DNA of 21,258 nucleotides from a virus. Shown piece after piece: positions 1 to 18,724 of the stretch (positions are counted from its first letter, which is position 1; every line of letters begins with the position of its first letter). Below the pieces are notes generated by a model, which had not been told where the DNA came from, did no database searches, and saw only the letters and a program-made list of their open reading frames with translations. The position numbers were made by a program, and so were the translations under genes. The stretch is from the IMG/VR virus record IMGVR_UViG_3300042544_000107, positions 1 to 21,258 of that record, one strand, 5' to 3'.

Positions 1-82
1 ACTATTCTTTGACGGGGGGTTTTAACATTACGCGCGCGACACCCCTCCACTCTCTACCCATATATTTTTTCTAAACCTTGTT

Positions 83-101: not shown

Positions 102-116
102 TGGTTTTGGCCTATG

Positions 117-347
117 TTGAGCCTGTGTGGCTCAAGAAAGGCTTGTGTTTCCGCAGGTCAAAGAGGGTGCGGGAGAAATTGTAAACTCCCACCCTTGTAT
201 ATAGTAGAGGGGCTTTTTAAAGCCCCGCCCCTCTACCGGCTTGAGGCCTTTCAGGCCGAAAGCGGCGCTTCGCTTGGGGCTTCGCGCCGCGACCGAGTGT
301 TAAGCGAGGTCGCTCACTCACTACCTTCGGTTCGCTCCCGGTAGTGA
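117..347 (+). other. Array of stem-loops (structured leader, possible packaging site or ncRNA)
   Basis: Successive inverted repeats are visible: 117-123 with 129-135 (7 bp); 164-168 plus 171-175 with 186-195 (10 bp, 2-nt bulge); 204-213 with 227-236 (10 bp, perfect); 245-249 with 253-257 (5 bp); 262-268 with 284-290 (7 bp, GC only); 289-294 with 308-313 (6 bp); and 318-325 with 340-347 (8 bp). Two pairings compete with these. One is 209-216 with 219-226. The other is a long-range 7-bp match, 233-239 with 338-344, which would close a multi-branched fold over the middle hairpins. No known RNA family was recognised. It is not a tRNA: there is no proper D-arm or anticodon arm, and the T-loop-like TTCGCTC lacks the conserved A. 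Candidate roles are a terminase recognition site, a structured RNA, or a terminator/attenuator cluster. Confidence 0.6.
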
Positions 348-364
348 AAACTAAAAATTTTTTT
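318..364 (+). terminator. Possible terminator-like hairpin before the terminase
   Basis: An 8-bp perfect stem (TCACTACC at 318-325 with GGTAGTGA at 340-347) and a 14-nt loop are followed by an A-rich spacer and then seven thymines at 358-364. The T-run starts about 10 nt after the stem, further than in a standard intrinsic terminator. The call is therefore weak, and the hairpin may instead be the last element of the structured leader. If it works, it would stop upstream transcription before the late operon. Confidence 0.3.
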
Positions 365-420
365 AACCTTATGAATAGTTATGACGGGCTATTTTTATAC
401 CTAGAGGAGTTCCTAGTCTT

Positions 421-2319
421 ATGCCTAAACAGCAGGACAGTCTCCATCTACGCCTAGCGGCTGGTAAGACTCTTGATTCTAATGAGTCTAAGTCCAGGCT
501 GCTTGAGATGATAGCCAAGGGTTTCAGTGTTGAGGATGCCTGTAAGGCTGTTGGTAAGTCTTCTAAGACTTTTTATTATTATACTAAGTCTGACCCAGAT
601 TTTGACCGTGAAGTTAAACTTGTCCGCGCCCTTAAAGCCAGGGGTGGTCAAATCTCTGATGAAGACAAAGCAATGTCGTTTAGGGATTTTCGTAAAGAGT
701 TTATGAAGTCTGAGACGTTTGCTCATCAGCAGAACGTTATTGACCTTATTGAAAATAATGACCCTTCTTGGTTACACCCAAGTATGTTGTTTGAGCAGGG
801 TGTTAAAAACTATGTGCTAGTTAATATGCCTCCTGAGCACGCCAAGTCAATGACAGTCTCAATTGACTACATCACATATAGAATCTGTGTTGACCCTAAT
901 GTGCGTATCAAGGTTGTGTCTAAGACACAGACTATGGCCAAAGAATTTCTTTACGCTGTTAAACAGCGTTTGACTTCCCCGTTCTATGTGGACCTTCAAC
1001 GTAGGTTTGCACCGGCTGATGGGTTTAAGGCCACTTCTGATAAGTGGACCCAGGACGCAATTTATATTGAACGTGAGTCCGGCGAAAAAGACCCGACTCT
1101 TCAAGCACTTGGTATTGGTGGACAAATTTACGGTGCCCGCGCCGATTTGATTATTCTTGATGACTGTGTGACTTTGTCTAACTCTGGTGAGTATGAGAAA
1201 CAGATTAGATGGATTCAACAGGAAGTCTTAACACGTATCGGTCCAACAGGTAAACTTCTCATTGTTGGTACCCGTGTTGACCCTATTGATATGTACCGTG
1301 AACTTCGCACTAATGACAGGTACCCTGAAGGTAAGTCTCCTTGGACTTATTTGGCTATGCCTGCGGTTTTGGAGTTTGATGAGAATCCTGAGAATTGGGT
1401 TACTTTGTGGCCTAAGTCTGATAGGCCTTGGTCTGGCGACCCTGTGGACCCTGATAAGGACGGCCTCTTCCCTAGATGGGATGGAATTAGACTAAAGCAA
1501 CGCCGCAGCGTTTTGGATGCTAAAACGTGGGCTATGGTTTATCAACAGCAAGATGTTGAATCTGAGTCTGTGTTCTCTGCTGAACTTGTTCGTGCCGCAG
1601 CGAATGGTATGAGAGGTTGTGGTCCGCTTGTTGCCGGTGCTCCTGGTTATCCTGCTGACACTTCAGGCTTCTACACCGTTTGTGCTATGGACCCTGCTAT
1701 GTCGGGTGACACCTTTACGGTTGCTATTTCTGGTGACAGGAATACTAAACGTAGGTATCTTCTTGATGCTTCTCGTATGCCTGCACCAACTCCGCAACGC
1801 ATTAGGGAAATAATTTTTCAATGGACGGAACGTTATAAGCCTGCTGTTTGGGTTATTGAGAAGAACGCTTTCCAATTGTTTCTTACCCAGGATGAAGAAA
1901 TTAACGCTTTTCTACAATCACGGGGTATACGTCTTGTACAACATTACACGGGCAATAACAAGATGGACCTTGAGTATGGTGTTGCTTCTCTTGGTACTTT
2001 GTTTGGCAATTTTGGTCCGGATGGCAAGCCCGCTAAGAACGCTCTTATTGAGTTTCCGAGGGCAGAGTCAGAAGGCGTTAAAGCACTTATTGAACAATTA
2101 ATTACTTGGTCTCCTGGTACAAAGAATAAACAGGATGGTCCTATGGCTTTATGGTTTGCCGAAACCCAGTTAAGGGATTATGTGAACCAGCAAGGTAGTT
2201 ATGGCAAAACTTGGGTTAGAAACCCTTTTGCTACACCAATTGATTTAGCCAAACGACAAGTTGTTGATTTGGAAGAGTATGCAAGAAAACAACGAGCAGC
2301 CAACGCTGGCTGGTTTTAA
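421..2319 (+). CDS. terL: Terminase large subunit with N-terminal helix-turn-helix
   Basis: This is the ATPase and nuclease motor subunit that packages DNA through the portal into the prohead. The ATPase domain shows an atypical Walker A, PPEHAKS at residues 137-143 (compare PPRHGKS in many TerL proteins), a Walker B LIILDD at 243-248, and a coupling-type GTR at 283-285. The RNase H-like nuclease follows, with candidate metal-binding acids D424 (AMDPAMSG), E480 (VIEKN) and D572 (QDGPMALW). Residues about 22-65 form a helix-turn-helix resembling those of small terminase subunits, so DNA recognition may be built into the same chain; no separate small subunit is visible in the window. The ATG at 421 is preceded by AGAGGAG at 403-409. 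The length of 632 aa is slightly above the usual 450-600. The family assignment is firm; the role of the N-terminal domain is inferred. Confidence 0.95.
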   Translation: MPKQQDSLHLRLAAGKTLDSNESKSRLLEMIAKGFSVEDACKAVGKSSKTFYYYTKSDPDFDREVKLVRALKARGGQISDEDKAMSFRDFRKEFMKSETFAHQQNVIDLIENNDPSWLHPSMLFEQGVKNYVLVNMPPEHAKSMTVSIDYITYRICVDPNVRIKVVSKTQTMAKEFLYAVKQRLTSPFYVDLQRRFAPADGFKATSDKWTQDAIYIERESGEKDPTLQALGIGGQIYGARADLIILDDCVTLSNSGEYEKQIRWIQQEVLTRIGPTGKLLIVGTRVDPIDMYRELRTNDRYPEGKSPWTYLAMPAVLEFDENPENWVTLWPKSDRPWSGDPVDPDKDGLFPRWDGIRLKQRRSVLDAKTWAMVYQQQDVESESVFSAELVRAAANGMRGCGPLVAGAPGYPADTSGFYTVCAMDPAMSGDTFTVAISGDRNTKRRYLLDASRMPAPTPQRIREIIFQWTERYKPAVWVIEKNAFQLFLTQDEEINAFLQSRGIRLVQHYTGNNKMDLEYGVASLGTLFGNFGPDGKPAKNALIEFPRAESEGVKALIEQLITWSPGTKNKQDGPMALWFAETQLRDYVNQQGSYGKTWVRNPFATPIDLAKRQVVDLEEYARKQRAANAGWF

Positions 2320-14340: not shown

Positions 14341-14341
<1 letters not shown>
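13994..14341 (+). CDS. Ig-like beta-sandwich tail-associated protein (115 aa)
   Basis: The protein opens with [20 protein letters not shown], then [19 protein letters not shown], a strand-rich middle, and [20 protein letters not shown] followed by [12 protein letters not shown]. This succession (input strand, D-L-T-G-Y-type turn, L-S-A-A-T, G-x-Y-x-Y-D-L and L-x-G-x-x-x-V) is a recurring phage pattern, seen next to fibre and baseplate genes and in BppU-N-like domains. It forms a compact beta sandwich of about 110 residues and probably connects or decorates tail fibres. It lies directly upstream of the collagen-like fibre, and its TAA overlaps that gene's ATG. The fold is fairly clear; the exact role is inferred. 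Confidence 0.7.
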
Positions 14342-15189
<848 letters not shown>

Positions 15190-17653: not shown

Positions 17654-18724
17654 ATGAAAATAGCAGCATACACAATTGCTTTAAATGAAGAGAAACACGT
17701 AATGCGATGGTTGGAAGCAACCAAAGACGCAGACCTACGTGTGGTAGCAGACACAGGTTCAACAGACAAAACCGTTGCCCTACTACAAGCAGCACCGAAT
17801 GTTATCGTGCACCAAATATCAATTAAACCTTTCAGGTTTGATGATGCCCGCAACGCAGCCCTAGCACTAATACCAGATGATATAGACATTTGTTTGTCCC
17901 TGGATATGGATGAGATACCTGAGAAGGGTTTCTTTCATACTGTGCGTGAGACGTGGGAACCTGACACTGACCGTGGTTGGGTGTGGTGGGACACTGGTAA
18001 CAAGTGGCGCAACAATAATAGGCTTCACCGTAGGCACGGGTATCGTTGGATTAAACCTTGCCACGAAGTAACTTTCAAATATACACCGGGTGATGAAAAA
18101 ACTTTAGAGTACGATTTGACAGTGTTTCATAAACCTGATGATACTAAGGCTAGAACTTATTATTTGCCTATGCTTGAGGGTGCTGTGCACGAAGACCCAC
18201 GCGATGCACGTATGTGGGCTTATTTAACACGTGAATACTATTTTCACAAAATGTGGGACAAAGTTATTGAAACCGCTTTTGCAACATTGAATGCTGGTGG
18301 ATGGTATGTTGAACGCTCTGCTGTGTGTCGTGCTGCTGGTCAGGCTTCACAGGAACTTGGTAAGAATGAGGATGCTCTTAAATGGTTTCAAAGAAGTATT
18401 AAAGAAAACCCTACAGAGTTAGAACCTTGGTTCAGTTTTGCACAGTTCTCTTACACTGTTAGCAACTGGCAAGGATGCTGGGACGCTGCAAGTAAAATTA
18501 ACGAACTTGAACCAACATCACATTACTTAAACGACAAGTCCATTTGGGATTGGCGTTGTTATGATTTGCTTTCTGTTTCAGGTTGGCAACTTGGTAAAAA
18601 AGATGAGGCTGTTAAGTTTGCAAGAATGGCTTTGGAAGCAAACCCTACGGACGGGCGCTTACAAGATAACTTGAAGTGGTTGGAGGAAAACTATGTCGCT
18701 GCACAGGCAGAGAACGCATCCTGA
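17654..18724 (+). CDS. GT2-type glycosyltransferase with TPR-like C-terminus
   Basis: This 356-aa protein transfers a sugar from a nucleotide donor; the acceptor is unknown. The GT-A domain shows the family-2 start (AAYTIALNEEKHVMRWL, residues 4-20), DTGSTDKT at 33-40 and the metal-binding acidic motif LDMDE at 83-87. The C-terminal half (about 180-350) has helical pairs with W-F/A-L-x-x-N-P-T patterns (ALKWFQRSIKENPTELEPWF, then AVKFARMALEANPTD) typical of tetratricopeptide repeats. There is no signal or membrane segment, so it acts in the cytoplasm. Its position beside the Thr-rich collagen fibre suggests virion glycosylation, but modification of host cell-surface glycans is also possible. 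The start ATG follows TGGGGA at 17644-17649. Codon composition shifts near 17880. Confidence 0.88.
   Translation: MKIAAYTIALNEEKHVMRWLEATKDADLRVVADTGSTDKTVALLQAAPNVIVHQISIKPFRFDDARNAALALIPDDIDICLSLDMDEIPEKGFFHTVRETWEPDTDRGWVWWDTGNKWRNNNRLHRRHGYRWIKPCHEVTFKYTPGDEKTLEYDLTVFHKPDDTKARTYYLPMLEGAVHEDPRDARMWAYLTREYYFHKMWDKVIETAFATLNAGGWYVERSAVCRAAGQASQELGKNEDALKWFQRSIKENPTELEPWFSFAQFSYTVSNWQGCWDAASKINELEPTSHYLNDKSIWDWRCYDLLSVSGWQLGKKDEAVKFARMALEANPTDGRLQDNLKWLEENYVAAQAENAS

Follow-up and report, generated by a model that had tools for sequence, protein, structure and literature searches.

A candidate structured leader RNA upstream of the terminase gene in freshwater-type actinophages

Positions 110-350 of the window (the whole stretch of DNA analysed, 21,258 nucleotides, which is the complete 21-kb phage contig record IMGVR_UViG_3300042544_000107 of IMG/VR) very probably constitute a structured functional element. 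This element is likely to be transcribed as a leader RNA, because the following gene, which codes for the terminase large subunit (TerL), needs an upstream promoter and the region is noncoding. The structure is well supported, while the function is what we infer; the best explanation of the whole, which we put forward tentatively and at slightly less than an even chance, is a structured 5' leader of the late operon acting in cis. The window phage itself is best explained as a podovirus-type actinophage of the lake or freshwater kind. Its TerL is an ordinary RNase H-type terminase, and the portal, a large internal protein and the major capsid protein are also encoded in the window.

The relatives used for comparison came from a TerL search in IMG/VR, which gave 80 loci, and from three further scans, after which 310 leaders of sufficient length (74 non-redundant) were available. 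They have been divided into clades A (that of the window), B, C, E (Planktophila-phage type) and S (Streptomyces). The leader is present in dozens of these relatives, in each of them upstream of TerL. By TerL, the closest isolated phages are E7 and F5, which infect 'Ca. Planktophila' (about 48% identity; PMC10202952), and TerL of the Streptomyces Beephvirinae is about 41-42% identical to that of the window; among GenBank phages, no nucleotide match of the window was obtained. In genome contigs, TerL relatives were limited to four contigs of Streptomyces and a single one from a beta-proteobacterial bin, where it has probably been misplaced. The features of the window discussed below are as follows.

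8-25, plus strand: conserved motif homologous to GACCCGGGGGTTGTTAA, assigned by order and sequence homology with Beephvirinae
45-56 (about 50/51), no strand: predicted packaging cut or inner edge of the terminal repeat, from the 40-base distance to the GACCC motif, transferred from Streptomyces phages
60-77, plus strand: conserved AT-rich block ATATATTTTTTCTAAACC, found in 38/39 non-redundant leaders of clades A, B and C and in few shuffles
117-135, no strand: H0, palindrome TTGAGCC-N5-GGCTCAA, upstream of H1
165-194, no strand: H1, hairpin or palindrome, directly upstream of the TATA-like box
198-205, plus strand: TATATAGT, invariant TATA-like (-10-like) box, just 5' of H2
204-236, plus strand: H2, hairpin placed where the leader is predicted to begin, able to pair either as 204-213/227-236 or, in competition, as 209-216/219-226
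239-263, plus strand: H3, two covarying stems with a conserved GA/GA step between them (38/39)
262-290, plus strand: H4, covarying closing stem around the conserved CGCTTCGCTTGGGGCTTCGC, shared with the Planktophila-phage clade
289-313, plus strand: H5, stem GCGACC/GGTCGC, nearly invariant among relatives
319-346, plus strand: H6, the last hairpin, variable among relatives
353-364, plus strand: A5T7 tract after H6, not recognisable as an intrinsic terminator
401-416, plus strand: small stem CTAG...CTAG around the AGGAG ribosome-binding site
421-2319, plus strand: TerL (terminase large subunit, phrog_38), with an N-terminal stretch resembling a terminase small subunit

The seven inverted repeats described in the earlier note (H0 to H6) were all recovered to within one base. 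An excess of folding over controls was also found: the minimum free energy of 110-350 on the plus strand is -110.5 kcal/mol, against a mean of -84.4 (s.d. 4.7) for 200 dinucleotide shuffles (z -5.51, 0/200), and in clade C z is about -2 or lower for 23/24 non-redundant leaders. G+C content is 56.4%, compared with 41.6% for the whole window (98.5th percentile), so that the region is indeed G+C-rich; the wording "far more GC-rich than the rest" was a slight overstatement, because two coding stretches are equally G+C-rich. The region had been called noncoding, and this agrees with the relatives, which differ by single-base indels and by changes that compensate pairing rather than preserve codons; an 88-aa open frame spans 78-344.

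Alignment of the relatives, which had been proposed as a check, revealed compensatory changes in H1, H3 and H4, those in H4 exceeding both shuffled and slid controls as is expected of a conserved structured RNA. Among the candidates that the note had left open, a structured RNA element is therefore supported by covariation. H4 is the strongest element of the leader, and its pairing is under selection: two-sided changes occur at 7/9 pairs (53 double-changed cells vs 16.9 in shuffles), and the covariation value of 0.702 compares with 0.225 for shuffles and a maximum of 0.188 for slid partners. In clades A and E, the closing stem takes the forms GCTCT/AGAGC, GCTGT/ACAGC, AACGAAC/GTTCGTT, CGAACT/AGTTCG, GGAG/CTCC and others, all of which enclose the fixed apical part TCGC-TTC-GC-TTGGG-GC-TTC-GCTC. 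H3 varies in a similar manner, with GGCC/GGCC, GGGC/GCCC, GGCA/TGCC, GACC/GGTC and others as stem variants and GCTT/AAGC, GCAA/TTGC and GCA/TGC in its outer stem. H5 gives no covariation signal because it is nearly invariant, and part of it (302-309) can pair alternatively with 268-275 inside H4. The competing registers of H2 proved exact, and both are kept in all three sequence variants found among 39 relatives. The long-range match 233-239/338-344 is present in the window, but it looks incidental, since the 7-mer is kept in only 3/39 relatives and the 6-mer in 8/39; the multi-branched fold that it would close has been rejected for want of conservation of this pairing.

A 22-base pattern of the apical part of H4 was used for scanning 2.9 million viral contigs and gave 64 matching stretches, of which 62 lie upstream of TerL (one of these at a contig end with the TerL start visible); the remaining two represent one chance match inside a coding sequence. 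H4 is common to the clade of the window and to the 'Ca. Planktophila'-phage clade, in which TerL is about 48% identical to that of the window. At the level of sequence, homology of the putative RNA can be regarded as established between clades A and E only, and the leaders of clades B, C and S have the position and layout of the window leader without the H4 sequence.

Comparisons between strands do not single out RNA. The minus strand of 110-350 folds nearly as strongly as the plus strand (z -5.07), folding energy over the leaders gives no strand preference (36/74), and z-scores favour the plus strand in 48/74, a weak tendency given the result by energy. G-U pairs, of which an excess over A-C pairs is expected on the RNA strand, were counted at ratios of 10:5 and 5:4, which are not decisive; an early ratio of 7:0, from a smaller and related set, was not upheld in the later counts. 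This symmetry would be compatible with hairpins forming in single-stranded or cruciform DNA at an element of packaging or replication, such as a pac recognition site, a site of concatemer processing or an origin. Such an element would also fit the predicted terminal-repeat edge that it follows and the many metagenomic contigs that end in or near 110-350, but these ends are equally explained by repeats and microdiversity. Moreover, a double-stranded recognition site needs no freely varying paired stem around a fixed loop, as observed in H4, and the conserved GA/GA step of H3 reads TC/TC on the other strand; we consider a DNA element quite unlikely.

The packaging cut of the window is placed by homology near position 50, outside the hairpin array. 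In Beephvirinae, GACCCGGGGGTTGTTAA is found close to the inner boundary of the direct terminal repeat: three complete records have identical first and last 253-275 bases and terminate in GGGGGAGTG, and 40 bases separate the start of GACCCGGGGGTTGTTAA from the inner edge, one of the three having a variant of the motif. Because the homologous motif of the window lies at 8-25, the same spacing predicts a cut at about 50. A motif of the GACCCGGGGGTTGTTAA type followed by an ACTCTC/ACTATC block has also been found in freshwater phages. The earlier proposal that 110-350 is itself a cos/pac site is not supported, since in sequenced Beephvirinae isolates the terminal-repeat edge is upstream of the homologous leader; the leader is within 700 bases of the genome end in a linear Beephvirinae genome. 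The pac-motif pattern used over long contigs was too strict. Three end overlaps of 100-126 bases in metagenomic contigs have been set aside, as they look like assembler circularisation and not physical ends. An inverted copy of the hairpin region at the start of one contig (L016, 5-78 and 104-534) is likely to be a fold-back assembly artefact.

Between the predicted cut and H2, several elements resemble parts of a promoter. H0 is probably an activator site upstream of the transcript, a role assigned from its sequence and position, and in other clades its place is taken by a CRP/GlxR-like palindrome, TGTGA-N6-TCACA. This palindrome was detected in 37/74 leaders (e.g., L118, L074 and L047; 0.0 expected from shuffles), and CRP/GlxR-like palindromes occur in 24/24 clade C leaders and 6/6 Beephvirinae leaders, with most centres at about -55 or -68 relative to the predicted late start; they possibly tie late transcription to a CRP-type regulator of the host. 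The inner stem of H1 has four pairs altered on both sides among clade A relatives, and H1 may act as a DNA operator instead of RNA. No canonical sigma-70 promoter (-35/-10 pair) was found in the window. In the clades compared, the first clear hairpin starts directly after the TATA-like box, which fits the 5' end of a transcript, and a late promoter can be postulated at the palindrome and this box, with a phage or host factor probably taking part in its use. From the packaging cut onwards, the putative order is an activator palindrome, the TATA-like box, the structured leader and TerL. Genes for WhiB and for a sigma-70 factor are reported for E7 and F5 (PMC10202952), and WhiB and a sigma factor are annotated in the Beephvirinae phage FlowerPower. 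In another relative (L043), a protein named WhiB-like from its sequence is encoded on the minus strand upstream of TerL.

Spacing provides information on the gene feature to which the element belongs. In clade E, H4 keeps almost the same distances to upstream elements (s.d. 3.3 and 9.5 bases) but lies anywhere from 129 to 499 bases away from TerL (s.d. 67), and for this reason the clade E element appears to belong to the presumed transcript start and not to the TerL gene. In one relative of the Planktophila type, an intact tRNA-Arg gene (L415:2451-2523) lies between H4 and TerL; together with the free spacing, this argues against a switch specific for TerL translation. A leader that regulates how the TerL message is translated or degraded (as a riboswitch-like element, by protein autoregulation or by 5' protection) would account for the position upstream of TerL, the maintenance of both H2 registers in relatives, the small stem around the ribosome-binding site and the nearly constant distance from H4 to TerL in clade A. 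In view of clade E, however, we regard it as unlikely, and neither a conserved unpaired pattern of a ligand pocket nor an Rfam riboswitch was recognised in the leader. Degenerate tRNA-like sequences were noticed by eye in two further phages of the Planktophila type (L395 and L397). Transcriptional read-through is possible in relatives such as L031, because the gene upstream has the same direction as TerL.

Action in cis on late transcription is favoured because of the promoter-anchored spacing, the length of the late operon, which in Beephvirinae bears tRNA genes, and the lack of an intrinsic attenuator, no G+C-rich hairpin followed by a T run having been found on the plus strand of five leaders. 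The late operon of this podovirus-type actinophage, with its packaging and virion genes, would open with a structured 5' leader, as an RNA of about 200 nt starting at about 205-211 on the plus strand that folds into H2-H5 with alternative registers and continues into TerL. Placed at the beginning of the nascent late RNA, the leader would most likely target RNA polymerase elongation, by put-like or rrn-like processive antitermination through the long operon, a role that we consider possible rather than probable. Alternatively, it might serve as a 5' stabilising or processing element, rather than as a TerL translation switch. Late operons of Beephvirinae contain about 20 tRNA genes, which are untranslated, and a polymerase without protection would be liable to termination across them. 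RNA hairpins at the start of long phage operons are exemplified by the put RNAs of HK022, which have a known sequence and two copies per genome; for the window leader they offer an analogy of working only. Two points speak against such a role: the leader has no recognisable boxA, and its motif was not found a second time elsewhere. Two Beephvirinae genomes carry TTTGAGAACTCAACAGTG about 1.1 kb from the right end (L124 44919, minus strand, Immanuel3; L126 45053, minus strand, FlowerPower), near the head of a leftward operon (0.0 expected in shuffled genomes). We take this sequence to resemble the boxA of actinobacterial rRNA operons, and it suggests antitermination of the rRNA type in the Beephvirinae leftward operon.

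The note had recognised no described family, and in accordance with this, Rfam (including phi29 pRNA, GOLLD and ROOL) gave no family match at gathering or permissive thresholds, the best sub-threshold match being Pxr with 18.9 bits vs 80 required. This counts against an independent phage RNA that acts in trans after being released from the late transcript by processing, either a pRNA-like packaging-motor RNA working with the terminase or a host-takeover RNA. It would be encoded beside the predicted genome end and upstream of TerL; the RNA gene of phi29 is likewise near a genome end of a podovirus. The free spacing to TerL in clade E, where a tRNA gene can intervene, would suit it, as would the fact that the late proteins searched included no recognisable small-terminase family of their own, TerL having a small-terminase-like N-terminal stretch. 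Nevertheless, the terminase is of a different class from that of phi29, no RNA subunit is known for RNase H-type terminases, and no sign of a separate RNA was found; a trans-acting RNA is improbable. A packaging-motor RNA is possible but unlikely, and its specific form, in which a discrete leader RNA is a working part or loading guide of an RNase H-type motor that has no recognised separate small subunit, is highly improbable. The window phage has a relative, L074, that carries on the opposite strand a match to a type II hammerhead ribozyme about 1.06 kb upstream of TerL (L074:3877-3937, minus strand; Rfam, 38.3 bits, gathering 37).

The cis-acting leader that we favour is of a known kind, the orphan structured phage RNAs, and a member of none of the families tested; no description of it was found in the literature. 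GOLLD and ROOL are large structured phage RNAs, GOLLD having first been seen in lake metagenomes, and both are far longer than the window leader. The Beephvirinae leaders (Immanuel3, WRightOn, FlowerPower and Manuel) share with it the succession of terminal-repeat edge, CRP-like palindromes, palindrome with TATA-like box, hairpin-rich untranslated leader and TerL, and differ by the absence of the H4 sequence; in the parts of the Beephvirinae paper available to us (PMC11536984), a leader RNA is unmentioned. Relatives of E7 and F5 (PMC10202952) have the H4 motif with a covarying stem at the same position as in the window; the leader of E7 itself has diverged, and a search for the H4 pattern gave no match there. 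The cabRNA of staphylococcal phages (PMC10686824) is likewise a structured RNA from the terminase region, but it lies inside the terS-terL genes, its sequence is not conserved, and it was found as a CBASS trigger.

In abundant actinophages of fresh water, the leader represents a candidate RNA family recognisable by a diagnostic motif; the cultured relatives are phages of Streptomyces and 'Ca. Planktophila'. It has a definite place, where packaging end, late promoter and terminase adjoin. Through it, one can test in what way virulent actinophages turn on and sustain their late operons. To our knowledge, put-like RNA elements are known in few phages, and if the leader were part of packaging, we know of no other such RNA beyond the phi29 group. 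Among the late genes of the window, 14341-15189 codes for a 282-aa collagen-like protein of G-X-T repeats (GPTGPTG), 17654-18724 for a glycosyltransferase (phrog_13126), and 19013-19597 matches a family annotated as ferredoxin (phrog_3704).
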